A model generated the notes under the pieces. It had not been told where the DNA came from and made no database searches. It saw only the letters and a list, made by a program, of their open reading frames with translations. 64,000 nt of DNA from Hymenobacter metallilatus. GTDB lineage: Bacteria; Bacteroidota; Bacteroidia; Cytophagales; Hymenobacteraceae. The stretch lies in the NCBI RefSeq assembly GCF_003944705.1, contig NZ_RWIS01000005.1, positions 1 through 64,000 on the forward strand, in the 5' to 3' direction. Shown here piece by piece: positions 2,712 to 26,114 of the stretch (positions within the stretch are counted from its first letter, which is position 1; every line of letters starts with the position of its first letter). The position numbers were made by a program, and so were the translations under genes.

Positions 2712-2755
2712 TAATTCAGGCGGTGGTCTAAATCGTGGTTTTGCTATCTTGTGTG

Positions 2756-3028
2756 ATGCTACAGACTACCCTTACCTGTGCTAAATGTGGGAGCACGGCC
2801 TTGCGCAAAAATGGGCATAGCCACGGCCACGCCAAGTATTTGTGCACGAGTTGCCGCCACCAGGCGGTGTTTCAGCCAGCGGCCCCGCGCAAAGCGGCCC
2901 AGTATGCGCAGGTGGAAAAGCTGCTCCTGGAGCGGGTGTCGCAACGGGCCATTGTGCGCCTGACGGGCGTAGCGCGGATGACGGTGGCCAAACTGGCAAA
3001 AAAAAGCGCAGACCCGTCCGAGCAGTAG
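2756..3028 (+). CDS. IS1-family transposase InsA-like protein
   Basis: This is the N-terminal, DNA-binding part of an IS1-type transposase. A zinc ribbon is formed by TCAKCG and LCTSC, followed by a helix-turn-helix-like segment (RAIVRLTGVARMTVAKLAKK). The ORF track begins at 2735, but the ATG at 2756 (MLQTTLTCAKCG) gives the normal IS1 N terminus and stays clear of the left terminal repeat. The frame closes at TAG 3026-3028, just after a run of eight A. Full transposase would need joining to the downstream InsB-like frame. Confidence 0.82.
   Translation: MLQTTLTCAKCGSTALRKNGHSHGHAKYLCTSCRHQAVFQPAAPRKAAQYAQVEKLLLERVSQRAIVRLTGVARMTVAKLAKKSADPSEQ
2998..3005 (+). other. Eight-A run: possible frameshift or transcript-slippage site
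   Basis: InsA reads GCA AAA AAA AGC here, while the InsB-like frame reads AAA AAA GCG. Joining them requires skipping one A (+1) or a -2 shift, not the -1 shift known for IS1. RNA polymerase slippage on the A run, a one-base indel that inactivated the element, or a homopolymer sequencing error would all explain it. Confidence 0.5.
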
Positions 3029-3059
3029 CCCGCTGCCGCACCGGCCGAAAGAGCTGGAA

Positions 3060-3464
3060 TTGGATGAGCTGTGGACGTTTGTGGGGCGGAAACGGCGCAA
3101 GAAATGGCTCTGGCTGGCTGTGGAGCGGCACACGCGGCGCATCGTGGCCTGGGTGCTGGGCAGCCGGGGCTGTGCTACCGCCCGGCGCCTGTGGCGGGCG
3201 CTGCCCGCCCCCTACCGTACGGGTACGTGGTACCACACGGATGAGTGGGAAGCTTACCGGGGCGTGCGGCCGGTGCGGGCTCACCGGGCGCATCCGAAAG
3301 GCAGCGGCCAAACCAGCATCGTGGAGGCCATCAACTGCTCCTTGCGCCAGAAGTGCGCCGTGCTGGTGCGCAAGTCCTGCTCGTTCAGTCGCTGCTTGGC
3401 CATGCACCACGTGCGTATTCAACTCGTCATTGACGAGCATAATCGACGATGCACCATCACTTAG
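3060..3464 (+). CDS. IS1-family transposase InsB-like catalytic part
   Basis: The DDE catalytic half of the IS1-type transposase. ELELDELWTFVGRKRRKKW supplies the first aspartate, WYHTDEWEAY the second, and TSIVEAINCSLRQ the glutamate; the C terminus CSFSRCLAMHHVRIQLVID also matches IS1. The frame is open upstream through the eight-A run back to about 3000 without a stop, so the protein is probably made as an InsA-B fusion. The track start at 3060 is a TTG inside the conserved ELDELW motif and is unlikely to be the true start. The stop lies 9 bases before the right terminal repeat ends. Confidence 0.83.
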   Translation: MDELWTFVGRKRRKKWLWLAVERHTRRIVAWVLGSRGCATARRLWRALPAPYRTGTWYHTDEWEAYRGVRPVRAHRAHPKGSGQTSIVEAINCSLRQKCAVLVRKSCSFSRCLAMHHVRIQLVIDEHNRRCTIT

Positions 3465-7344: not shown

Positions 7345-8538
7345 TTAAATATCCAGCTTAAAATACTCCGCTTTTTGCTTTGAGCTCTTGGCCTTCAGGG
7401 AGGATTGGCGAATAACCAGGTCGCCGGTAATAACGAAGGTGCGGGGCTGGAAAGCCTCTTTTAGCTGTACCTGCTCCAGAAACAGCCGGGCGGCCTGCTG
7501 CCCAATGCGGTAGGGGTGAAGGTTCACCGTTGTCAGGCCGGGCTCAATCATGGAGGCCATAAACTCGTCGCCGAAACCTACCACCGCCATGTCATCCGGT
7601 ACCCGGACGCCCCGCTCTTTCAGGGCCACCAGCAAGTCGAAGGCGTTGGTGTAGTTCACGGCAAAAATGGCGTCGGGGGGCTCCGGCAGGGCCAGCCAAG
7701 TATCTAAGGCTGCCACCGCCGACTCGGGCCGGAAGTGGATGTGGGCGCGCAGCTCATCCAGCACGGGCAGGCCGTGTTTGAGCAGGGCGCTGCGGTAGCC
7801 AGCCAGGCGGTTCTGGCTAATGAGCAGGCCCTCGGGACCGGCCAGAATGGCAATACGCTGGGCGCCCTGCTCAATGAGGTGCTCCGTAACGGCAAAGGCT
7901 CCGTTCCAATCGTCCAGAATCACCTTGGCCGTATCCACCTCATTGCACACCCGGTCAAAGTGCACAATAGGAATCCCTCGGGTGGCGGGCTGCTTTACGT
8001 GGTCGAAGTTTTCGGTTTCGCGGGAGTGGCAGATCAGCAGCCCGTCGACGCGGCTCGCAATAAGAGCCTGCACGTTGCTGACTTCCATTTCGTACGATTC
8101 CTTGGACTGGCAGATCATTACGCGGTAGCCGGCCTCGCCTACCACTTGCTGAATTCCGCTTACGGCCGTGGCGAAGAAGGGCCGCTCAATATCTGGTATG
8201 ACTACCCCAACGGTACGGGTTTCGCTGCTTTTCAGGCTTTGCGCCAGTAGGTTGGGCTGATAATCGAGCTGGCGGGCTACCTCCATGATGGCCCGGCGGG
8301 TGTTGATATTGATATCGGAGTGCCCATTCAGGGCCCGCGACACGGTTGAGGGAGCTACGCCCAACTCCCGGGCCACGTCGCTGATGGTGGTTTGACGGCG
8401 CTTTTTTTCGGGTACTACCACGCCCTTCTCATCCGTGAAATGATAGTTGCAGGCCTTGCAGTGGTAGCGCTGCCGCCCCCGGATGAAACCAGCCCGCATC
8501 ACAGAATCGGGGAGGTGGCATTTCGTGCATCTGACCAT
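7345..8538 (-). CDS. LacI-family transcriptional repressor with N-terminal InsA-like zinc ribbon
   Basis: A 397-residue regulator. Residues about 1-36 form a zinc ribbon with paired cysteines (VRCTKCH and YHCKAC), very like the InsA domain of IS1 transposases. The LacI helix-turn-helix follows at about 48-95 (TTISDVARELGVAPSTVSRA) and a periplasmic-binding-protein-like effector domain from about 105 (VGVVIPDIERPFFA) to the end. The track starts at 8589; ATG 8538 is preferred because it begins right at the ribbon. It is divergent from uxuA with a 32-bp operator-like palindrome between them, so it probably represses the hexuronate/xylan operon and its own gene. The inducer, perhaps a uronate or its catabolite, is inferred. 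Confidence 0.9.
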   Translation of the reverse strand: MVRCTKCHLPDSVMRAGFIRGRQRYHCKACNYHFTDEKGVVVPEKKRRQTTISDVARELGVAPSTVSRALNGHSDININTRRAIMEVARQLDYQPNLLAQSLKSSETRTVGVVIPDIERPFFATAVSGIQQVVGEAGYRVMICQSKESYEMEVSNVQALIASRVDGLLICHSRETENFDHVKQPATRGIPIVHFDRVCNEVDTAKVILDDWNGAFAVTEHLIEQGAQRIAILAGPEGLLISQNRLAGYRSALLKHGLPVLDELRAHIHFRPESAVAALDTWLALPEPPDAIFAVNYTNAFDLLVALKERGVRVPDDMAVVGFGDEFMASMIEPGLTTVNLHPYRIGQQAARLFLEQVQLKEAFQPRTFVITGDLVIRQSSLKAKSSKQKAEYFKLDI

Positions 8539-8877
8539 AAGCGTAAATTGAATTATTTCAAAGGTGTCTAGTGGCGCAATGAAAAGCAAGCCCGCTGCCT
8601 CATTTCAGATTATGCAAGTAAGCTAGGAATTTTTTTTGCTCTTCCTAGATGAGTAGCAAGCTACCGAAAACGTTTTCGAAAACGTTTTCGGTATTTTATC
8701 TTGAAAAACAGCCGTTTGAAAGGTTTTTTGATAGCTCACCTATCTTGATGGATGTTCTATATTCGATAGTAAGTACTCCCTAACCCCTATACGTGCCGCT
8801 TTACAACTTGGTACTACACGAGTAGGTAGAGTAGGGTAATAATTGAATTTTTCTAATTCAGGCTTCTGGTCTTCGTT
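8539..8877. promoter_or_regulatory. Divergent lacI-type/uxuA control region
   Basis: This 339-base AT-rich interval holds no gene. It contains the 32-bp palindrome (8662-8693), two TATCTTG sequences (8697-8703 and 8741-8747) that partly match the Bacteroidota -7 element, a TTTG at 8715-8718, and a small CTAGGAA/TTCCTAG inverted repeat around 8623-8648. If the first TATCTTG is a -7 box, the palindrome would cover the -33 region and repressor binding would block transcription of uxuA; this is inference. Confidence 0.5.
8662..8693. promoter_or_regulatory. 32-bp perfect palindromic LacI-type operator
   Basis: Each half is TACCGAAAACGTTTTC and its exact complement follows. It contains two overlapping CGAAAACGTTTTCG units, the AT-flanked central-CG palindrome typical of LacI/GalR operators. 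It lies 124 bases from the repressor start and 184 bases from uxuA. Confidence 0.82.
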
Positions 8878-10128
8878 ATGTTGCACACCATGCGCTGGTT
8901 TGGTCCTCAGGATCCGGTTCCGCTTCATTCTATCCGGCAGGCGGGGTGCACGGGTGTGGTTACGGCCTTGCACCAGGTGCCAGTAGGAGAGGTATGGCCG
9001 GTGGCGGAAATCCGGCGCCGCCAGCAGCTGATTGAGGCCGACAACGCGCAGTACTCGCCCTTGCACTGGGCCGTAGTAGAAAGCCTGCCAGTGCACGAGG
9101 ATATTAAAAAAGGCCGGCCCGAGCGGGCCCGGTACATTGCCAGTTACCAAGCGTCGCTGCGCAACCTAGCTGCCTGTGGCATCCGCACGGTGTGCTACAA
9201 CTTTATGCCGGTGCTGGACTGGTCGCGCACCAACCTGCGCTACCAGATGCCCGATGGCTCCCGCGCCTTGCGCTTTGTGTGGCAGGATTTTGCGGTGTTC
9301 GACCTGTGCATTCTGGGTCGCCCCGGCGCGGAGCAGGATTACGAAGCCGCAGTGGTCGAGGCTGCCCGCTCCCAGTTTGCCACGATGAGTGAGGCCGAAA
9401 AAGCGGAGCTGACAAGCAACGTGCTGCTGGGCCTGCCCGGCTCAGAGGAAACCTTTCAATTGGCCGATTTTCAGCGGGTGCTGGATGAATACGCCGCCGT
9501 GGATGCCAAGGCGCTGCGCGAGAACCTCCACTACTTCCTGCGGGAAGTGGGGCCGGTGGCCGAGGAAGTCGGCGTGAATCTGTGCATCCATCCCGACGAC
9601 CCGCCGTTTCCGCTGCTGGGCCTGCCCCGGGTAGTAAGCACCGAAGCCGACCTGCTGGGTTTGCTGCAGGCCTACGACTCGCCGGCCAACGGCCTCACGT
9701 TCTGCACCGGCTCCCTGGGTGTGCGCCCCGATAACGACCTGGCGGGCATAGTGGAGCGCCTTGGGCACCGCATTCATTTTGTGCATCTGCGCGCCACCAA
9801 GCGTGAGGAAAACCCGCGCAACTTCCATGAGGCCGACCACCTGGCCGGCGACGTGGATATGTACGCCGTGGTGCGTGCCCTAGTACAGGAGGAGCTGCGC
9901 CGCGCCGCTAATGGCCAGGAAGATGCCCAGCTGCCCATGCGCCCCGACCACGGCCACCAGATGCTCGACGACCTGGAAAAACGCACCTACCCCGGCTACT
10001 CGGCCATTGGGCGGCTGCGGGGGCTGGCTGAGCTACGGGGCCTGGAGCTGGGCGTACGCCGGGCCCTGGCCGAAGCCCCACCTGCTACCGCCGACTACCG
10101 GGACAGGACTACTGCCCGCTTCGTTTAA
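8878..10128 (+). CDS. uxuA: Mannonate dehydratase
   Basis: Cytosolic enzyme that dehydrates D-mannonate to 2-keto-3-deoxygluconate, the last specific step of glucuronate breakdown. The N terminus [20 protein letters not shown] followed by [16 protein letters not shown] is the classical UxuA opening, and the metal-site region [19 protein letters not shown] is intact. Length (416) fits the family. It is the first gene of the plus-strand xylan locus, directly behind the operator palindrome, and only 25 bases separate it from the GH67 gene. That order couples release of glucuronic acid to its catabolism. The glucuronate isomerase UxaC and KDG kinase/aldolase are not in the window. Confidence 0.96.
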
Positions 10129-10153: not shown

Positions 10154-12256
10154 ATGCTGCTCCGGCTTCTCTTCTTACTTCTGCTGGTTATCGGCCCCCA
10201 GGCCGGGGCGTGGGCCGATGACGGCTACCGCCTGTGGCTGAAGTACGACCAGCTGCCGGAGGCAGGGCTACGCAAGGAGTGGCAGGCACAGACCAACAGC
10301 ATCCGTATCGATCAGAATGTGGGACCCACCCTGCAAACCGCCGCGCACGAGCTGCAACTCGGGCTGCAAGGCTTGCTGGGACGCCCGGTGCCGGTAGGGG
10401 CGGCACCGGGCGGCAAGGGCCACCTCCGCCTCCGCGTAGCGCCCGATGCCGCACTGGGCCAGGAAGGCTACCGCATCAGTTACCAGAACGGTGGGCTGGA
10501 AATCACCGGCTCTACCGAAACGGCGGTGCTCTACGGCTGCTTTGCCCTGCTGCGGCAGGTGCAAACCGGACAGCGCCCCGCCGGCCTCCGCCTCAGCAGC
10601 CAGCCTCGCATTCGGTACCGCCTGCTTAACCACTGGGATAACCCCAACGGCACCGTGGAGCGCGGCTACGCCGGTTCCAGCATCTGGAAGTGGCAGGAGC
10701 TGCCCGAGGTGCTCGACCCACGCTACCAGGACTACGCCCGCGCCAACGCCTCCATTGGCCTCAACGGGGTGGTGCTTAACAACGTCAACGCCTCAGCCCG
10801 CTACCTCACGCCCGAGTACCTGCGCAAAGTGGCGGCCGTGGCTGGCGTGCTGCGCCCCTACGGCCAGCGGGTATACCTCTCGGTGCTCTGGGCCGCGCCC
10901 AAAGTGATTGGGGGGCTGAAAACCTCCGACCCCCTCGAGCCGCAGGTGCAGGCGTGGTGGAAAGCCCGCACCGACGAAATCTACAAGACTATTCCCGACT
11001 TCGGGGGCTTTCTGGTGAAGGCTAACTCCGAGGGCGAGCCGGGCCCCCAGGACTACAGCCGCACCCATGCCGACGGGGCCAATATGCTGGCCCGGGCCCT
11101 TGGCCAGCACGATGGCATTGTAATGTGGCGTGCTTTCGTATACAAAGCCGGCAGTGGCGACCGGTTCCGGCAGGCCTACGAGGAGTTTCAGCCACTGGAT
11201 GGCCAGTTTGCCGACAAGGTGCTGGTGCAGGTGAAAAACGGCCCGATTGACTTTCAGGCCCGGGAGCCGTTTCACCCGCTGTTTGGGGCTATGCCCCGCA
11301 CTCCGCTGGTGCTGGAAGTGCAGCTTACGCAGGAGTACCTGGGCTTTGCCACCCACGCTGTGTATTTGGGGCCGCTGATTAAGGAGTGTTTGGAGGCCGA
11401 TACGCACCGGCAGGGCCCTGGCTCCACGGTGGCGAAGGTGGTGGATGGCACACTGGAAAAGCACAGCCTCAGCGGTATTGCGGGCGTGGCCAACATTGGC
11501 TCCGACCGGAACTGGACCGGCCACCCGGTGGGGCAGGCTAACTGGTACGCTTTCGGGCGGCTGGCCTGGGACCATACGTTGCGCTCCGAGGACCTGGCCC
11601 GGGAATGGACCCGCATGACGTTGACCCGGGAGCCGGCCGCCGTAGCTGCTATTCTGCCCTTACTCAACCAGTCGCGGGCCATATACGTGCGCTACACCAC
11701 GCCCCTGGGGCTGCACCACATCATGGGCCAGAGCCTGCACTACGGCCCCGAGCCCTGGCTGTCCCAAAGCGCCCGGCCCGACTGGACCTCAGTGTACTAC
11801 CACAAAGCCGATGCCCAAGGGCTGGGCTTCGACCGCACCGCCACCGGCTCCGATGCCCTGGCGCTGTACGCCCCTGGTGCCCGCCACCTGTGGGCCAACC
11901 CTGCTACCTGCCCGCCCGATTACCTGCTCTGGTTTCATCATGTGGGCTGGGGGCAGCCGCTAAGCACTGGCCGTACCCTCTGGGACGAGCTAACCACCCG
12001 CTACTACTCCGGCACCGACTCAGTGCGCTGGATGCAGCAGCAGTGGGAGCTGGCCAAACCCGCCCTGGACCCGCAGTTGTACGCCGATGTGGCCGCCCGC
12101 CTGCGCGTGCAGCACCGCGAGGCCCAGTGGTGGCGTGATGCCTGCGTGCTCTACTTCCAAGAGTTTGCCCGGCGGCCGTTGCCGCCCACGCTTACCCCAC
12201 CTGCCCGGCCCCTGGCCGAAATCAAGGAGCTGGTCGACATCTACCAGCTGCGCTAA
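10154..12256 (+). CDS. aguA: GH67 alpha-glucuronidase
   Basis: A 700-residue exported enzyme that removes (4-O-methyl-)glucuronic acid from the non-reducing end of short xylo-oligosaccharides. The signal peptide is MLLRLLFLLLLVIGPQAGAWA; an N-terminal helper domain runs to about residue 150 and the TIM barrel follows. Catalytic residues align with the known GH67 set: Glu293 in ANSEGEPGP, Asp366 in VKNGPIDFQ and Glu394 in LEVQLTQEYLG. The track ORF begins inside uxuA at 9911 in another frame; ATG 10154 gives the signal peptide. It works after xylanase cleavage, whereas GH115 at the locus end acts on polymer. Confidence 0.96.
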   Translation: MLLRLLFLLLLVIGPQAGAWADDGYRLWLKYDQLPEAGLRKEWQAQTNSIRIDQNVGPTLQTAAHELQLGLQGLLGRPVPVGAAPGGKGHLRLRVAPDAALGQEGYRISYQNGGLEITGSTETAVLYGCFALLRQVQTGQRPAGLRLSSQPRIRYRLLNHWDNPNGTVERGYAGSSIWKWQELPEVLDPRYQDYARANASIGLNGVVLNNVNASARYLTPEYLRKVAAVAGVLRPYGQRVYLSVLWAAPKVIGGLKTSDPLEPQVQAWWKARTDEIYKTIPDFGGFLVKANSEGEPGPQDYSRTHADGANMLARALGQHDGIVMWRAFVYKAGSGDRFRQAYEEFQPLDGQFADKVLVQVKNGPIDFQAREPFHPLFGAMPRTPLVLEVQLTQEYLGFATHAVYLGPLIKECLEADTHRQGPGSTVAKVVDGTLEKHSLSGIAGVANIGSDRNWTGHPVGQANWYAFGRLAWDHTLRSEDLAREWTRMTLTREPAAVAAILPLLNQSRAIYVRYTTPLGLHHIMGQSLHYGPEPWLSQSARPDWTSVYYHKADAQGLGFDRTATGSDALALYAPGARHLWANPATCPPDYLLWFHHVGWGQPLSTGRTLWDELTTRYYSGTDSVRWMQQQWELAKPALDPQLYADVAARLRVQHREAQWWRDACVLYFQEFARRPLPPTLTPPARPLAEIKELVDIYQLR

Positions 12257-12279: not shown

Positions 12280-13092
12280 ATGGCACAACTCAACTCCCTT
12301 GTTTCGGCACAGCCCCAGCCCAACGGGCAGCACCATTCCAACCCGTTTTCCCTGGAAGGCAAGCTGGCCCTGGTAACCGGCGGCGGCACCGGTATCGGGC
12401 TGGAAATTGCCCGCTGCATGAGCCTGGCCGGGGCTACGGTCATCATTACGGGCCGCCGCGAGGCCGTGCTGCAGGAGGCCGTAGCCGATCTGGGCAGCTC
12501 GGTGCATTACCTCACCAACGACGTGTGTGAGCTGGACCAGCTCGACGGCCTCGTAAACCACATTGAGGCTAGCTACGGCCCCATTGACATTTTGGTAAAC
12601 AATGCCGGAGTGAACATGAAAAAACCAGCCCTGGAAGTAACGGACGCCGAATTCAACCGCATCATTCAAACCAACCTCAACGCTGTGTTTGCCCTTACCC
12701 GGGCCTGTGCCCGGCACATGGTGGCCCGCAAAAGCGGCGTGATTCTGATGATTTCCTCCATGGCAGCCTACTATGGTATTGATCGGGTAGTAGCCTACGC
12801 CGCGTCCAAATCGGCGGTGGAGGGAATGGTGAAGGTGCTGGCCTCGGAGTTTTCCAAGGACAATGTGCGGGTAAATGCCATTGCCCCCGGCTTCATCGAA
12901 ACCGAAATGAGCCGCACCGCCATGAACTCCGACCCTGACCGCCGCGACCGGGCCATGCGCCGCACGCCCATGGGCAAGTTCGGTCAGCCCCAGGATATCG
13001 GCCACGCCGCCGTGTTCCTGGCCTCCGAGGCGGCCCGTTACATCACCGGGGCTTCGCTGCCCGTGGATGGCGGCAATTCCATCGGCTTTTAG
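12280..13092 (+). CDS. SDR-family oxidoreductase, probable fructuronate/mannonate reductase
   Basis: A 270-residue classical short-chain dehydrogenase. The nucleotide-binding motif is TGGGTGIG (about 35-42), NNAG is at about 107, and the catalytic Tyr-Lys is in VVAYAASKSAVEG; the end, TGASLPVDGG, is typical. It resembles gluconate 5-dehydrogenase-like SDRs. Because it sits between the glucuronidase and SusC and two genes after uxuA, the likely job is NAD(P)H reduction of fructuronate to mannonate, replacing the unrelated long-chain UxuB. That role is inferred from context; the SDR call itself is firm. Confidence 0.92.
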   Translation: MAQLNSLVSAQPQPNGQHHSNPFSLEGKLALVTGGGTGIGLEIARCMSLAGATVIITGRREAVLQEAVADLGSSVHYLTNDVCELDQLDGLVNHIEASYGPIDILVNNAGVNMKKPALEVTDAEFNRIIQTNLNAVFALTRACARHMVARKSGVILMISSMAAYYGIDRVVAYAASKSAVEGMVKVLASEFSKDNVRVNAIAPGFIETEMSRTAMNSDPDRRDRAMRRTPMGKFGQPQDIGHAAVFLASEAARYITGASLPVDGGNSIGF

Positions 13093-13142: not shown

Positions 13143-16100
13143 ATGTACACACCACTACGCAAAACGGCCCTGGGCCTGAGCTGGCCGCTCCTAACGGCCG
13201 TTGGCTTTCCGCTCGCCAGCTCGCTGCTGCCAGCCGGCAGCGCGTTTGCTCAAACGGGGCAGACGATTTCCGGTAAAATCACCAGTCTGGATACCGGCGA
13301 GGGGCTGCCGGGCGTGACCATCATTCAGAAGGGAACCACCAACGGTGTTTCCACCTCGGCCGATGGCAGTTTCACGCTGACCGCGCCCCAGGGCAGTACG
13401 CTGGTGATTAGTGCCATTGGCTTCAACAGCCAGGAGGTACAGGTGTCAGGTAGCTCGCTGTCCATTCGATTGGCTACCAACACTACGGCCCTTAACGAGG
13501 TGCAAGTGGTGGGCTACGGGACGCAGAAGAAAAGCCAGGTAACGGGCGCTATTTCGTCGGTGAGCGAGCAGGCCCTGCGCGACGTGCCGGTGGCCAACAT
13601 CGGGCAGGCACTGCAGGGCCGTGCGGCGGGCGTCAACATCAGCAGCGCCAATACCACGCCCGGGCAGGCCCCGGTGATCCGCATCCGGGGTAACCGCTCC
13701 TTTGCCGGCTCCAACGACCCGCTGCTGGTAGTGGACGGCGTACCCTTCGACGGCAGCCTGAACGATTTGAACCCCGACGACATTACCTCACTGGAAGTGC
13801 TGAAAGATGCTTCCTCGACGGCTATTTACGGGGCCCGCGGCGCCAACGGCGTTATCCTTATCACCACCAAGCGCGGCAAAGCCGGTGCCCCCCGCGCCAC
13901 CTACAGCGCCTACTACGGCGTGAAGAAAGCCTACGGGCGCTACGACCTGCAGAACGGGCAGGAGTACTTCAACTTCCGCTCGGAGGCCTTCCGGGCCGCC
14001 GGCCTGGACCCGAACACGGCCGCCGGCTTCCTTACCGACGACGAGAAGGCCAACCTCGCCGCCGGCCGCGACTTCGACTACCAGGACCTGCTGTATCAGA
14101 ACGGCCGTATCCAGAACCACGCTCTGGGCCTGAGCGGCGGCACCGAGCAGACCCAGTACTCGGCCTCGCTGGGCTATTACGATGAAACTGCCATTGTGCC
14201 GGTGCAGGGTATCAAGCGCTACTCCCTGCGCGGTACCCTCGACCAGCAGATCGGCAAGCGGGTAAAGGCGGGGCTGAACACGCTCAATACCTTCACCCAG
14301 CAGAAAGATCCGGGTCTGAACAATATGTACAACATATTGACCTCCAGTCCGCTGGCTACGCCCTACAACCCTGATGGTACGCCCAAGCTCTACCCCGTAG
14401 ACGGCGAAACTGCCTACGCAAACCCGCTGACCAACTATATCCCTAATGGCCGCCTGGACCAGCGCCGGCGCATCCGCACGTTCAACAGCCTGTACGCGCA
14501 GGTGAACCTGCTCAAGGGCCTCGACTACCGCTTTAACCTGGGCCTGGACGCCCGCGCCGAGTTCAACGAAAACTTCGGGGCCAGCGGCACTACCATCCGC
14601 GGTAACCAGCAAAGCGCGGCGGGGCGCTCCACCAACACGGCGTTTAACCTACTGGCCGAGAACCTGCTGCTTTACAACCGCACGTTCGCCGAAAAGCACG
14701 ACGTGAACTTCACCGGCCTCTACAGCTGGCAGGGCTTCCGCAACGATGGTTTCGGCACCGGTGCCCAGAACCTGCTGGCCAACTACCAGCTGGCCTCTAA
14801 CCTGGGCACCGGCACCCCCACCTCGGCCACCAGCTTCGAAGGGAAATGGGACATTATTTCCTACATGGGCCGCCTCAACTACGCCTATGACAACCGCTAC
14901 TCCATCACGGCTACGGTGCGCGTGGATGGCTCCTCGCGCCTGTCGAGTAACATTTACCGGGCTTTTCCCTCGGCGGCCGTGGCCTGGAACCTGGCCAATG
15001 AGTCGTTTATGCAAAGCCGCAGCTGGATCAGCAGTCTGAAGCTGCGCGCCAGCTACGGCCGCACCGGCAGCACCGCCGTAAACCCCTACCAGACGCTCGG
15101 CTCCCTCGGCACGGGCCTGGGTAACGGCTATTATAACTTCGGCGCAACCGGGGTGGCGGGCGTGCGCCCGGCCAGCATCCCGAACCCCAACCTGGGCTGG
15201 GAATACACCGGTACCACCAACTTTGGCCTCGATTTCGGCTTCTTCAACAACCGCGTAAGCGGCTCTATTGAAGTGTATCAGCAGCGCACCAACGACCTGC
15301 TGCTGCCCGATGCCCTGCCCACTTCCAGCGGCTACGGCTCGTTTACGCGCAACATTGGCAAAACCCAGAACCGCGGCTTAGAGGTGAGCCTGACCACGGT
15401 GAACGTGCGCACGGAAAGCGGCTTCGAATGGTCGTCGGACTGGAATTTTACCCGCAACCGCGAGCAGGTGCTGGATCTGGGCCTGGGCCTGGATGAAAGC
15501 GGCAACCAGCGCAGCGACATCAGCAACCAGCGCTTCATCGGCCAGCCGCTGTACGTGTTCTACGACTACAAGTACGCGGGCATCTGGCAGGCAGATGAGG
15601 CCGCCGCCGCCACGCGCGCCGGTACCCGCGTGGGGCAGGTGAAAATTCAGGACCTGAACGGCAACGGGGTGGTGGATGCCGGCGACCGGCAGATCATCGG
15701 CTCGCGCCAGCCCAAGTTTGAGGCTGGTACCACGCAGCGCTTCCGCTTTAAGGGCTTCGACCTGAACGCCGTGGCCCTGACCCGGGTAGGTGCTACCATC
15801 ATCGACCCGGTGCTGTACTCGCCTGCCTACTTCACTACCTACAGCGGCCGCCGCAACCAGGTGAACCTGCCGTACTGGACGCCCGCTACCCCGGGCAACC
15901 GCTACCCGCAGCCCAACCAGAGCTACTTCGGTGACTTTGTGCCCAACGCGCAGTCGCTGGCCTACCTGAGCGGCACCTTCATCAAGGTGCGCAGCATTGA
16001 TCTGGGCTATACCCTGCCGCAAAGCCTCGTGAGCCGGGCCAAGATGAGCACGGCCCGCATTTACGTGCAGGTGCAGAACCCGCTGATCTGGTCGCCGGAA

Positions 16101-16301
16101 GAGTACTTCAAAAATAACAAAGCCATTGACCCCGATGCGCTGTCGTACTCCACGCGCTTCAGCGGCAGCACCGCCGTCAACAACGGCATCGCCTTCGCCG
16201 AGGGCGACCTGAACAGCGGCGTGAACAACGGCCTGGCCGGCCGGGGCGTGAACTACCCCACTACCCGCTCCTTTATTGTGGGCATCAACGTGGGCTTCTA
16301 A
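13143..16301 (+). CDS. SusC-like TonB-dependent outer-membrane transporter
   Basis: A 1052-residue outer-membrane channel for oligosaccharide import, working with the SusD-like lipoprotein directly downstream. After a signal peptide, residues about 38-115 are a CarboxypepD_reg-like beta-sandwich (GQTISGKITSLDTGEGLPGV), then a TonB-box-like region and the plug domain (GTQKKSQVTGAISSVS, LLVVDGVPFDG, LKDASSTAIYGARGANGVI). The remainder is the 22-strand barrel, ending with the aromatic strand SFIVGINVGF. Expected substrates are xylo-oligosaccharides, judged only from the neighbours. The intergenic gap to susD is 43 bases. Confidence 0.96.
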   Translation: MYTPLRKTALGLSWPLLTAVGFPLASSLLPAGSAFAQTGQTISGKITSLDTGEGLPGVTIIQKGTTNGVSTSADGSFTLTAPQGSTLVISAIGFNSQEVQVSGSSLSIRLATNTTALNEVQVVGYGTQKKSQVTGAISSVSEQALRDVPVANIGQALQGRAAGVNISSANTTPGQAPVIRIRGNRSFAGSNDPLLVVDGVPFDGSLNDLNPDDITSLEVLKDASSTAIYGARGANGVILITTKRGKAGAPRATYSAYYGVKKAYGRYDLQNGQEYFNFRSEAFRAAGLDPNTAAGFLTDDEKANLAAGRDFDYQDLLYQNGRIQNHALGLSGGTEQTQYSASLGYYDETAIVPVQGIKRYSLRGTLDQQIGKRVKAGLNTLNTFTQQKDPGLNNMYNILTSSPLATPYNPDGTPKLYPVDGETAYANPLTNYIPNGRLDQRRRIRTFNSLYAQVNLLKGLDYRFNLGLDARAEFNENFGASGTTIRGNQQSAAGRSTNTAFNLLAENLLLYNRTFAEKHDVNFTGLYSWQGFRNDGFGTGAQNLLANYQLASNLGTGTPTSATSFEGKWDIISYMGRLNYAYDNRYSITATVRVDGSSRLSSNIYRAFPSAAVAWNLANESFMQSRSWISSLKLRASYGRTGSTAVNPYQTLGSLGTGLGNGYYNFGATGVAGVRPASIPNPNLGWEYTGTTNFGLDFGFFNNRVSGSIEVYQQRTNDLLLPDALPTSSGYGSFTRNIGKTQNRGLEVSLTTVNVRTESGFEWSSDWNFTRNREQVLDLGLGLDESGNQRSDISNQRFIGQPLYVFYDYKYAGIWQADEAAAATRAGTRVGQVKIQDLNGNGVVDAGDRQIIGSRQPKFEAGTTQRFRFKGFDLNAVALTRVGATIIDPVLYSPAYFTTYSGRRNQVNLPYWTPATPGNRYPQPNQSYFGDFVPNAQSLAYLSGTFIKVRSIDLGYTLPQSLVSRAKMSTARIYVQVQNPLIWSPEEYFKNNKAIDPDALSYSTRFSGSTAVNNGIAFAEGDLNSGVNNGLAGRGVNYPTTRSFIVGINVGF

Positions 16302-16344
16302 TTTCTTCCCTCAACTTTTCCGGCGCTCCGGCGCCTCTTCTCCT

Positions 16345-18111
16345 ATGAAAAAGCTACTTCTTACCGGTACGGCTCTGGCGTTGCTGCTGGCAGCTACCAG
16401 CTGCGACAAGGACACCCTAGTGGAAGACCCCCGCTCGGTACTGGTGCCCGGCTTCTTTGGTACCCCCGACGGCATTCAGGCCGGACTGGTGGGTGTATAC
16501 TCGGGCCTGCGCAACGTCACCGCCGACCAGGGCGGCTCGAACTTTATGTCGCAGGGAACCGATGAGTTCATGCGCGGCTTTGGTGCCTCCAATGGTTTCG
16601 AGGACTACAACGCGGGCGAGATGAGCTCGACCAACGGCACCGCCACCAACCTCTGGAACGCCTTCTACGGCAACATTAACACGGCCAACGGCGTGCTGCA
16701 GTACGCCGGCACGGTGCAGGGACTGTCGCCGGCCGCCGTGAACCAGATTGTGGCCGAAACCAAGGTGCTGCGCGCCTGGAACTACTTCTACCTGGTGCAG
16801 TCTTTCGGCGACGTGCCGCTGATGCTCAAGTTTGTGGACACGCCCACCAAGGACATTGTGCGGGCCCCGCTGGCCGACGTGTACAGTGCCATTATTACGG
16901 ACCTGAACGATGCCCTCAACCCCACTACAGGCATTGCCAATACGGCAGCCCAGCCCGGCCGCGTGACGCGCGCCACGGCTCTGCACCTGCTGGCTAAAGT
17001 GCACCTGACCCGCGCCACCTCCTCGGCCCGCGCCGCCGACGACTACGCCAAGGCGGCTCAATATGCTGAGGAACTGATCCGAGATGCCTCCAAGTATGGC
17101 AAGGGGCTGGAAGCCGATCCGGGTCTGGTATTCGCCGAAGGCAATGAGAACGGCAGAGAGGTACTGATGAATGTGCAGTTCAATGCCGACCCTGTGTTCA
17201 CGGGCATTTCTGATAACGGGGCAGGCGGCGCCGGCCAGAACCAGACCAACTTTCTGTTCCGGGTGCGCTACGACCTGCTGCCGAACGTGGCCCGCAGCAT
17301 CCAGTACGGCCGTCCTTTCGGCCGCCTGGGCTCCACACCCTACCTGCTCGACTCCTACAAGCTGGCTTCGGAAACTACGCCGCGGCAGTGGCGCACCACC
17401 GATACCCGCTACGCCAAGTGGTTCTCCACGCTGTGGCTGGTGAACAGCGTGGGTGGTAACGGCGGCACGGCCTTCAACCCCCGCGCCGTGGTGGGCGACA
17501 CGGCTGCCTGGTATGCCGGCCGCGAGCTGACGGCCGCCGAGCAGGCCCGCATCAACAGCCGCCCCAACGGCCGCTTCGTAGTGGGCACGCCCAGCACCTA
17601 CACCACCAACTTCTCGCCCTACATCAACAAGTATGACGATGCCACCCGCGCGGCCGTCAATAACAGCTCCGACCGGCCGCTGATTTTCTACCGCTTGGCC
17701 GAAACCTACCTCATTGCAGCCGAGGCCAATATGTACCTGGGCCGGACCACTGAGGCCGTGAACCAGCTCAACATCATCCGCCGCCGCGCCGCCGCGCCCG
17801 GCCGCGCCGCCCAGATGGAAATTACGGCTACACAGCTGAACATCGACTTCATTCTGGAAGAGCGCACCCGCGAGCTGTGCGGCGAGTTTACCCGCTGGTA
17901 CGACCTGGTGCGCACCGGCAAGCTGGTAGAGCGCGTGAAGCGGTATGTGCCGGCCTACGTGGGCTCCAAACCCTCGCCCATCCCCGGCGGCACCGACCAG
18001 TACGGCTCCAACGCGGCCCGCAACATCCAGCCCTTCCACGTGCTGCGCCCCATTCCGCAGCAGGAGATTGACCGCACCAGCGGTAAAATCACCCAGAATA
18101 CCGGCTACTAA
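16345..18111 (+). CDS. SusD/RagB-like surface glycan-binding lipoprotein
   Basis: A 588-residue lipoprotein that caps the SusC channel and binds glycan at the cell surface. The signal peptide MKKLLLTGTALALLLAATSC ends at a lipobox cysteine, so ATG 16345 is chosen over the track start at 16276, which lies inside susC. Family features include the TPR-like helical segments (ETKVLRAWNYFYLVQSFGDV, then TRATALHLLAKVHLTRA) and the C-terminal FILEERTRELCGEFTRWYDL followed by HVLRPIPQQEID. A strong hairpin after the stop suggests partial termination between SusD and the downstream enzymes. Confidence 0.95.
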   Translation: MKKLLLTGTALALLLAATSCDKDTLVEDPRSVLVPGFFGTPDGIQAGLVGVYSGLRNVTADQGGSNFMSQGTDEFMRGFGASNGFEDYNAGEMSSTNGTATNLWNAFYGNINTANGVLQYAGTVQGLSPAAVNQIVAETKVLRAWNYFYLVQSFGDVPLMLKFVDTPTKDIVRAPLADVYSAIITDLNDALNPTTGIANTAAQPGRVTRATALHLLAKVHLTRATSSARAADDYAKAAQYAEELIRDASKYGKGLEADPGLVFAEGNENGREVLMNVQFNADPVFTGISDNGAGGAGQNQTNFLFRVRYDLLPNVARSIQYGRPFGRLGSTPYLLDSYKLASETTPRQWRTTDTRYAKWFSTLWLVNSVGGNGGTAFNPRAVVGDTAAWYAGRELTAAEQARINSRPNGRFVVGTPSTYTTNFSPYINKYDDATRAAVNNSSDRPLIFYRLAETYLIAAEANMYLGRTTEAVNQLNIIRRRAAAPGRAAQMEITATQLNIDFILEERTRELCGEFTRWYDLVRTGKLVERVKRYVPAYVGSKPSPIPGGTDQYGSNAARNIQPFHVLRPIPQQEIDRTSGKITQNTGY

Positions 18112-22569: not shown

Positions 22570-24453
22570 ATGAATCGTACCGCTACCTTGTTTTCCGGCC
22601 TGCTTGGGCTGCTCGTGCTAAGTGCCGCGCCGGCGGCATTGGGCCAGAATACGCCCGTGTCGCAGCAAGCTGAATCGGGCGCGTTGGGCGCCGACTGGCA
22701 AAACCTGAACGCCAGCGGCGTACAGTACGTCACGATTACCCCAACGGCAACCATCAACGCCCAAAACCCGGGTACGGCCGCGCGAGTTGTTTCCTACTCC
22801 GTAACATTCCCCGGCCCTGGTACTTACGATTTGTATGTGCGGATGCGGGTAAACGCGGGCGGAGCCAATGACGACAGTTTTTACTACGCCAACGGCTTTG
22901 GCACCAAGTCGCCCTCCGCTGACACCGACTGGATTACCTGCAACAACCTGTTCAACGTGGGGTACACCGGCGGCAGCCTGCCCGTTGATAATCAGGGCTC
23001 GGCAGGCACCGGCGTATGGAAGTGGGTGAACATGTCGAAGTACAGCTACAGCGAAACGCCGGTTTCCTTTACCGTGCCGGCCGGAGCCCTGACGCAGACG
23101 TTTCAGCTAGGGGCCCGTGAGGACGGGTTTGATATCGATAAGCTGGTATTTGGGCAAACGGGCCTGTATTTCACCCCGGCTCAGCTGGACGCCGGCCAGC
23201 AGGGCACTACTACGCCGCCTACCACGTTTACCCCCGCTGGCCCTCCCATGGCCCAGGGCAAGTCGAAATACCTGGGTGGTATATACAGCACGGCCCAAAA
23301 GCCCTTCTTCAACCGTTACTTCAACCAGGTAACCCCCGAAAACGCCGGTAAGTGGGGCGCTGTGGAAGCTACTCGTAACCAAATGAACTGGGCGGAGCTG
23401 GACTCGGCCTATAACCTGGCCCGACGCAACGGCTTTCCGTTCAAGCTGCACACCCTCATCTGGGGCCAGCAGCAACCCATCTGGATTGAAACCCTCCCGG
23501 CGGCCGAACAGCTGCTGGAAATTCGGGAATGGTTTCAGGCCGTGGCCCAGCGCTACCCCAACATCGACCAGATTGAGGTGGTAAACGAGCCCACCAACGA
23601 CCTGCCGCTGAACGGTTCCACGGGCAACAACGGCCCCAACACGCCCGGCAGTGGGGCTGGTAACTATTACAATGCGCTGGGTGGGGCTGGTACTACCGGT
23701 TGGGACTGGGTGATAACTTCTTTCCAGCTGGCCCGCCAATATTTCCCCAACTCCCAGCTCCTCATCAACGACTACGGGGTGATAAGCTACACAACCAATA
23801 CCCAGCGCTACCTGGATATTGTGAACCTGCTGGTGGCCCGCAACCTGGTAGATGGGGTTGGTATCCAGGGCCACGCCTTCGAAACGCGCAACATTCCTGT
23901 TGCCACGCTTACCACCAACCTGAGCGCTTTAGCTGCGGCCGGCAAGCCGCTGTATATCACGGAGCTGGATATTGATGGCGTTAACAGCAGCAACCAGCTC
24001 GATGATGCCGTGCAGCTGGCCGAATACCAGCGCGTGTTTCCGGCGTTGTGGGAGCATCCGGGGGTGAAGGGCATTACGCTTTGGGGCTACCGGCCCGGCC
24101 ACTGGCGCACGGCCCAGGGCGCCTACCTGGCCAACGACGACAACACGGAGCGTACGGCTTTGGTATGGCTGAAAAACTACGTGCGCACCACCATTCTCAA
24201 AAACCGCAGCAGCCAGCAAACCCTCGTTCAGCTGTACCCAAATCCGACCCAGGATGGCCGCATCACCCTCACCGGCACCCAGCGTATTGTACACGTGCGT
24301 ATTGTAGATATGCAGGGCCGCAGCGTATACACGCAGGCCCTGCACCAGCAGTCCACTTTTGCCCTGCCCGTACAGCTGGGGGCAGGCCTTTACGCCGTAC
24401 AGCTTACTGAGCAGGATGGAGGCCTGATAACCAGTAAGCTGCTGGTGCAGTAG
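22570..24453 (+). CDS. Secreted GH10 endo-xylanase with N-terminal carbohydrate-binding module and T9SS sorting domain
   Basis: A 627-residue multidomain endo-beta-1,4-xylanase. After the signal peptide, residues about 30-195 form a beta-sandwich like a CBM6/35-type module (VSYSVTFPGPGTYDLYVRMR), then a Pro/Thr linker and the GH10 barrel from about 228. Acid/base Glu340 is in EVVNEPTND and the nucleophile Glu465 in LYITELDIDG. The last 80 residues (LYPNPTQDGRITL to the terminal KLLVQ) are a type-A T9SS sorting domain, so it should be exported by type IX secretion and act outside the cell on polymeric xylan. It is the only protein in the window with this signal. Confidence 0.93.
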   Translation: MNRTATLFSGLLGLLVLSAAPAALGQNTPVSQQAESGALGADWQNLNASGVQYVTITPTATINAQNPGTAARVVSYSVTFPGPGTYDLYVRMRVNAGGANDDSFYYANGFGTKSPSADTDWITCNNLFNVGYTGGSLPVDNQGSAGTGVWKWVNMSKYSYSETPVSFTVPAGALTQTFQLGAREDGFDIDKLVFGQTGLYFTPAQLDAGQQGTTTPPTTFTPAGPPMAQGKSKYLGGIYSTAQKPFFNRYFNQVTPENAGKWGAVEATRNQMNWAELDSAYNLARRNGFPFKLHTLIWGQQQPIWIETLPAAEQLLEIREWFQAVAQRYPNIDQIEVVNEPTNDLPLNGSTGNNGPNTPGSGAGNYYNALGGAGTTGWDWVITSFQLARQYFPNSQLLINDYGVISYTTNTQRYLDIVNLLVARNLVDGVGIQGHAFETRNIPVATLTTNLSALAAAGKPLYITELDIDGVNSSNQLDDAVQLAEYQRVFPALWEHPGVKGITLWGYRPGHWRTAQGAYLANDDNTERTALVWLKNYVRTTILKNRSSQQTLVQLYPNPTQDGRITLTGTQRIVHVRIVDMQGRSVYTQALHQQSTFALPVQLGAGLYAVQLTEQDGGLITSKLLVQ

Positions 24454-24575
24454 TCAGGTACGGCGGCACACTTTCCCGGCTGCGTCGCCCATTGCCGCCT
24501 GAATACGGTACCGCTCCGGCTGGTGCCGGGCCCGCCGGCTCTGCCCCCGATTCGCAACCGCTACTTTCTTTAAAC

Positions 24576-26114
24576 ATGCACTACCTTCTCGGCTACGATA
24601 TCGGTAGCTCTTCCATCAAAGCCTCTCTGCTCGACGCGGCCACCGGCCGCTGCGTGGCAGCTGCTACCACGCCCACCACCGAAATGGGCATGGATGTGCC
24701 CCAGCCAGGCTGGGCCGAGCAGCGGCCCGAGCGGTGGTGGCAGGAAATTATCAACGCCACCCGCCAGCTGCAGGCTACCTACGGTTTCGAGGGGGCGCAA
24801 GTGGCCGCCATTGGCATCACCTACCAGATGCACGGTTTGGTGCTGATAGATGCCCAGGGCCAGGTGCTGCGCCCGGCCATCATCTGGTGCGACAGTAGGG
24901 CGGTGGAGCTGGGCAACCAGGCCTTTGCCGAGCTGGGCGAAGCGCATTGCCTGGAGTATTTTCTGAACTCACCCGGCAACTTCACGGCCTCCAAGCTTAA
25001 GTGGGTACAGGAAAACGAGCCGGCGGTGTACGCCCAGATCCACAAAATTCAACTGCCCGGCGACTACATTGCCTTCAAGCTGACTGGTGAGCTGCAAACT
25101 ACCGTGTCGGGGCTGTCGGAGGGCGTGTTCTGGGACTTCAAGAACCAGGCCCTGGCTCAGGAGCTGCTCGACTACTACGGCATCAGCCCGGAGCTGCTGC
25201 CCGAGGTGGTGGATACGTTTTCGGTGCAGGGCCGCCTGAGCGAAGACGCCGCCCGGACACTAGGCCTGGCGGCCGGTACGCCCATCAGCTACCGGGCCGG
25301 CGACCAGCCCAACAATGCCTTTTCCCTGAACGTGCTGCAGCCCGGCGAAATAGCCGCCACGGCCGGCACCTCAGGCGTTATCTACGGCATTACGGAAGCC
25401 CCGGCCTCCGATGCCCAGTCACGGGTGAATGCCTTTGTGCACGTGAACAGCACCCCCGGGCAGCCCCGCAACGGCGTGCTTATGTGCATGAACGGCACCG
25501 GCATCCTGAACAGCTGGCTGCGCCGGATGGTGGGCGAGCTGCCCTACGACGAAATGAACCGGCTGGCCGCCGAAGCCCCGGTAGGAGCGGAGGGGCTGGT
25601 ATTCCTGCCCTTCGGCAACGGGGCCGAGCGGATTCTGGCCAACCAGCCCGCCGAGGCCGCCCTGCTGGGCCTGAACCTGAACGTGCACTCCCGCGCCCAC
25701 CTGCTGCGCGCCGCCCAGGAGGGCATTGTGTTTGCCCTCATGTACGGCCTGGGCATCATGCGCGACATGGGCGTGGCGGTGCATACCGTGCGCGCCGGCA
25801 ACGCCAACATGTTCCTGAGCCCGGTGTTCCGCGAAGCCTTCGTGAATACCGGCAACCTCACCCTGGAACTCTACAACACCGACGCGGCCCAGGGCGCGGC
25901 CCGCGGGGCGGGCGTGGGCGCGGGCATTTACGCCTCGGCCGCTGAGGCCTTCGGCGGGCTTGAATGCCTGCTCACCGAAACGCCCGACCCGGCTTTGCAG
26001 CCGCAGTACGCAGCGGCCTACGCCCGCTGGCAGCAGGCCCTTCGGCATCAACTCAACGCATCTACTTCTTCATTTTCAAGCTTCCCGACTCATGTCACGC
26101 AACACGCTTTCTAA
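24576..26114 (+). CDS. xylB: Xylulokinase
   Basis: A 512-residue FGGY-family kinase converting D-xylulose to xylulose 5-phosphate with ATP. The ATPase motif [18 protein letters not shown] opens the protein, [13 protein letters not shown] and AIIWCDSRA are typical xylulokinase signatures, the catalytic Asp lies in [11 protein letters not shown], and [10 protein letters not shown] binds phosphate. ATG 24576 is chosen over the track start at 24492, which adds an unstructured leader. The reading frame runs 23 bases into xylA, so the two are translationally linked; the extra C-terminal residues ([15 protein letters not shown]) are unusual. Confidence 0.94.

Follow-up and report, generated by a model that had tools for sequence, protein, structure and literature searches.

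Domain organization and conservation of the regulator

The window, that is, the whole 64-kb stretch of DNA analyzed, comes from the soil bacterium Hymenobacter metallilatus and carries a LacI-type regulator gene divergent from an operon that begins with uxuA. The features discussed below are as follows.

About 2735-3464, IS1-type element with InsA at 2735-3028 and an InsB-like gene at 3060-3464 (DDE_Tnp_IS1, 80.6 bits)
7345..8538, minus strand, ribbon-LacI regulator, translated open frame of 397 aa plus stop
7399..8217, minus strand, sugar-binding, dimerizing domain, residues 108-380 (PF00532, 113.4 bits; PF13377, 113.5 bits)
8251..8388, minus strand, LacI helix-turn-helix (HTH) and hinge region, residues 51-96 (PF00356, 51.6 bits)
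8392..8430, minus strand, variable basic linker, residues 37-49 (pLDDT <50 at 39-43; weak conservation)
8431..8538, minus strand, four-cysteine zinc ribbon, residues 1-36 (NF050000, AlphaFold strands, invariant columns)
8661..8694, no strand, 34-bp operator between regulator and uxuA, with a perfect 32-bp palindrome at 8662-8693
8878..10128, plus strand, uxuA (D-mannonate dehydratase), which opens the divergent operon (PF03786, 417.5 bits)
10178..12256, plus strand, GH67 alpha-glucuronidase, start not fixed (PF07488, 487.8 bits; PF07477; PF03648)
12280..13092, plus strand, short-chain dehydrogenase (SDR; PF13561), conserved beside uxuA-GH67
13143..18111, plus strand, susC-/susD-like outer-membrane glycan uptake pair, named from sequence

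The textbook LacI protein is a repressor built of two parts, and the regulator has both: the HTH is above its family cut-off (51.6 vs 27 bits for PF00356), as are all matches to the periplasmic-binding-protein-like effector domain (PF00532, PF13377 and PF13407). The usual plan places the HTH at the N-terminus, whereas here it starts at residue 51, behind a conserved ribbon; the LacI domain definition does not require an N-terminal position of the HTH (PMC4052901). Judged by these domain matches, the ribbon is an addition to the usual LacI plan that leaves the family's own domains intact. The N-terminus reads MVRCTKCHLPDSVMRAGFIRGRQRYHCKACNYHFTDEKGVVVPEKKRRQTTISDVARELGVAPSTVSRALNGH..., containing C4, C7, C27 and C30, the four cysteines that the preliminary description had placed ahead of the LacI HTH, and RGRQR at residues 20-24. 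AlphaFold predicts three short strands (residues 13-19, 22-27 and 32-35; block pLDDT 72-85), followed by disorder at residues 39-43 of the linker (pLDDT <50). In the fusion alignment the linker has a mean majority fraction of only 0.37, in contrast to the well-conserved ribbon and HTH. The ribbon, with its four invariant cysteines, is predicted to bind zinc.

A survey across Cytophagales, as the preliminary description had suggested, revealed the fusion to be recurrent, with 55 loci among 292 genomes of the order. Congeneric orthologues match at full length from residue 1 with 72-92% identity in about 21 of the 36 genomes of the first sample, and orthologues in another family of the order do so with 48-55% identity. 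In the genome collection, at least 80 named loci have the architecture, all of them from Bacteroidota among the matches listed; the carriers among these matches include Hymenobacter, Dyadobacter, Runella, Arcicella, Emticicia, Pseudarcicella and Fibrisoma, as well as Chryseolinea, Chitinophaga, Filimonas, Terrimonas, Niabella and Sphingobacteriales bins. Across 34 diverse fusions, C4, C7, R20, G21, Q23, R24, C27 and C30 are invariant, the arginines forming part of an RG.QR motif. Because the fusion recurs across genera, the ribbon is a genuinely conserved piece of the protein rather than a frame open by chance. The fusion is ancient and present in several Bacteroidota families.

A misassigned start codon, with translation truly beginning near residue 46 and the ribbon an artefact of an untranslated upstream frame, would agree with the HTH being the usual beginning of LacI proteins; it was rejected as highly improbable, given that residues 1-36 are as conserved at the protein level as the rest, with four cysteines invariant across several families. 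The open frame of many orthologues moreover opens just ahead of the ribbon-LacI methionine. A search of open-licence full texts, with subscription journals outside its scope, found no description of the class; the ribbon-LacI protein, real and conserved, is apparently a so far undescribed variant of LacI regulator.

Type and source of the ribbon

The ribbon was matched by NF050000 (IS1_IS1595_Zn, NCBIfam; cut-off 28 bits) both within the whole regulator (28.3 bits) and alone (31.8 bits), and the same model matched 34 of 34 fusions tested, with E-values up to 0.01. With IS1 InsA it shares the CxxC...RGxQRYxCxxC pattern but stays below the Pfam model of the InsA N-terminal domain (PF03811; 15.1 vs 26.1 bits cut-off), and it is followed by the LacI HTH and sensor domain instead of the InsA HTH and transposase. 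The profile search envisaged in the preliminary description thus places the ribbon in the broader IS1/IS1595 type and not in the InsA-specific family. A sequence search of solved structures returned LacI HTHs and chance ribbons only, none of the regulator's ribbon type. The proposal of a transposase-type ribbon joined to an otherwise ordinary LacI repressor is borne out by the NF050000 match together with LacI and sugar-binding domains above cut-off.

To compare candidate relatives, we derived a profile from the ribbon sequences of the 34 diverse fusions. Against InsA of other IS1-type elements it gave 35-41 bits, but no more than 12-13 bits against InsA of the IS1 element in the window. Since the window InsA scores so far below other InsA-like proteins, the nearby IS1 is not the ribbon source, and the special kinship to the InsA 5 kb away assumed in the preliminary description falls. 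A recent fusion of the gene with this IS1 element, whose ribbon is of the same kind and physically near, is accordingly rejected as next to impossible in view of both this 12-bit score, when other InsA-like proteins reach 35-52 bits, and the sharing of the fusion by many genera. At C29:159145 the same genome has a second IS1 copy, equal in its PF03811 score.

The highest scores outside the fusions (40-52 bits) were obtained with stand-alone InsA-like proteins from Bacteroidota, each about 140 aa long, such as L003, L192 and L194. Their nearest NCBIfam model is the IS1 transposase, below cut-off, and they differ from the regulator in combining the ribbon with an InsA-type HTH (LYVEGVSYREIERLLGVSHVSVMNWVKKY) and in having no sugar-binding domain. 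Such proteins occur in many Cytophagales genomes (L189-L194, L196, L201, L202), including a copy in the same genome (L003, C29:287229-287309; 40.5 bits), and consist of an InsA-like ribbon, an HTH and a conserved C-terminal part; the L003 type resembles an InsA-type DNA-binding protein that has been domesticated. That the ribbon passed from a transposase to the regulator is reasonable to suppose, though a domain of 36 residues cannot prove it.

Gene neighborhood

The divergent operon comprises uxuA, GH67, the SDR gene, which probably encodes the hexuronate oxidoreductase step, and the susC-/susD-like pair. Beyond the latter lie esterase, GH3, GH10, xylulokinase and xylose isomerase genes, the last named from sequence; family matches in the gene context comprise UxuA, GH67, SDR, GH43, GH3, GH10 and XylB. 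The uxuA-GH67-SDR set adjoins most Hymenobacter fusions, as it does the fusions of Pseudarcicella and Cellulophaga sp. BC115SP; another susC-like gene is divergently transcribed from the fusion in Dyadobacter, Chitinophaga and Chryseolinea. The regulator therefore most likely acts locally to repress the genes of glucuronoxylan use, within a wider ribbon-LacI family that most likely serves several glycan loci. By LacI-family precedent, the ligand would be a sugar and the regulation negative.

Operator

The 32-bp operator candidate of the preliminary description proved to be a perfect palindrome (TACCGAAAACGTTTTC-GAAAACGTTTTCGGTA, 8662-8693) and to be conserved beside the fusions. It contains two LacI-type AACGTT centers, with CpG steps at 8671-8672 and 8683-8684, 12 bp apart, in keeping with the even palindromes with central CG of the LacI family, and its outer arms are CTACCG and CGGTAT. 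The operator reads as two overlapping LacI sites with a 12-bp offset. In a few fusions the site is a single one of 22 bp, for instance CTACCGCAAAC-GATTCCGGTAG in L186, which points to the AACGTT-type centers as the LacI dyad. Allowing up to 3 mismatches to the degenerate pattern, no further operator was found in the genome, and none in the 64-kb window when up to 4 were allowed, including the region upstream of xylB (24453-24576), unlike two other Hymenobacter genomes (L257 and L258), in which a second site precedes xylB.

In nearly every genus sampled, a conserved operator, CTATCGNNAACGTTTNC-GNAAACGTTNNCGATAG, lies upstream of the fusions. The best match scored 21 of 28 or higher in 72 of the 78 named fusion loci listed; shuffled sequence gave no score above 17, and the regions upstream of 58 ribbon-less LacI genes none above 21. 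Order-wide, when one mismatch was allowed, 43 of the 55 fusion genes have a site in the 450 bp upstream, and any site at all occurs in only 6 of 243 fusion-free genomes; the pattern was derived from fusion sites, and these counts express association rather than independent motif discovery. At the fusion loci, each position of the arms (CGATA) carries 1.2-1.8 bits, on a par with the core. Two further 32-bp palindromes, TACCGCAATCGTTT..AAACGATTGCGGTA, are located at position 2519 of L245 and position 2705 of L243, neither of them accompanied by a LacI gene in the 5 kb examined.

Ribbon-less LacI genes and relatives

The operator length had been taken in the preliminary description to suit a protein with two DNA-binding modules. 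This argument was dropped because such double sites also precede ribbon-less LacI genes. Upstream of ribbon-less LacI genes of the same order, a paired motif with 12-bp offset occurs in 15 of 58 regions (0.35 expected from shuffles), most of the 15 looking like one orthologous group. Double dyads with this offset were identified in L248-L250, L252, L256, L283, L284, L286 and L304, and palindromes of 32-36 bp in L248-L250, L252, L283 and L284. For ordinary LacI proteins, among them E. coli GntR, sites overlapping at about 13 bp have been reported in front of 110 operons, and simultaneous occupation of both sites 12-13 bp apart is hard to square with known LacI structures (PMC4052901).

Phylogenetic trees of the LacI portion place the ribbon-less L031, L300 and L303-L305, all of one family, together with L030 among the fusions, and forcing the fusions into one clade was rejected (AU p = 0.0015). 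The ribbon must therefore have been lost there or gained a second time elsewhere. CTATCG arms were found in none of the nine nested ribbon-less loci, whereas seven of the nine have GGGAA[CT]NTTCCC sites, mostly as separate GGGAACATTCCC-type sites spaced 19-21 bp (19 bp in L299-L302, 21 bp in L066) and as a single site in L303. L304, the last of the seven, retains the 12-bp overlap but with TTTTCCG arms, and no operator site was recognized in L305 and L306. The pattern fits a ribbon that reads the CGATAG arms, although it does not amount to proof, coming as it does from essentially one lineage, in which the specificity of the HTH may have shifted along with the ribbon.

Proposed mechanism

We consider it probable that the regulator is a LacI repressor with an accessory DNA-binding ribbon, acting through one 34-bp operator on the glucuronoxylan/hexuronate operon and on its own gene. 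It would repress uxuA-GH67-SDR-susCD until a sugar effector binds, and from the same operator in the divergent promoter region would also repress its own transcription. The ribbon, carried on the flexible basic linker, would serve as an accessory module that most likely contacts the outer CGATAG arms and adds affinity or specificity. The extended operator contact foreseen in the preliminary description is plausible, and the CGATAG arms are the better candidate for the target of the ribbon, because the nested ribbon-less relatives do not have them. As a counterpoint, the LacI HTH itself could read the arms, since ribbon-less half-sites of the same order extend 10 bp from the dyad (e.g., GTTTGCGTAA); the difficulty of filling two sites 12 bp apart at once (PMC4052901) and the single lineage behind the ribbon-loss comparison also speak against the proposed mechanism.

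A ribbon that does not read DNA, acting as a protein-protein or stability module or as a zinc/redox switch while the LacI HTHs alone read the 34-bp site, appears unlikely but deserves weight, and the same low likelihood covers its protein-protein variant, for instance the bridging of two dimers on the overlapping sites. It gains from the double dyads of ribbon-less LacI genes and from the use of ~13-bp overlapping sites by ordinary LacI proteins such as GntR (PMC4052901); against it, the ribbon retains the basic RG.QR strip of transposase ribbons, and the CGATA arms are highly conserved beside the fusions and missing from the nested ribbon-less clade. The accessory DNA-binding role can also be taken further, tentatively and with less than even confidence: throughout Bacteroidota the transposase-type ribbon might be a second reader of the CGATAG arms, four DNA-binding domains per dimer might fix the complex on the overlapping sites, and loss of the ribbon might lead to a rebuilt operator.

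The regulator shares its HTH, hinge region and sugar-binding domain with CytR, RbsR, PurR, CcpA and E. coli-type GntR, along with a divergent operon and probable autoregulation, even palindromes with central CG and overlapping double sites (PMC4052901); it differs from this family in the 36-residue zinc ribbon and linker ahead of the HTH and in a 34-bp double site with CGATAG arms. With a conserved third module, a matched operator of exceptional conservation and natural ribbon-less relatives, it would offer a testbed for how a repressor gains a DNA-binding domain and how the operator follows such a gain. It also provides a system for studying how LacI proteins use overlapping sites ~12-13 bp apart (PMC4052901). 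In two genomes (L283 and L284), a ribbon-less LacI gene is preceded by a perfect 36-bp palindrome, TTCTCCGCAAAGCTTTGC-GCAAAGCTTTGCGGAGAA; this double site is LacI-like but has AAGCTT centers in place of AACGTT.
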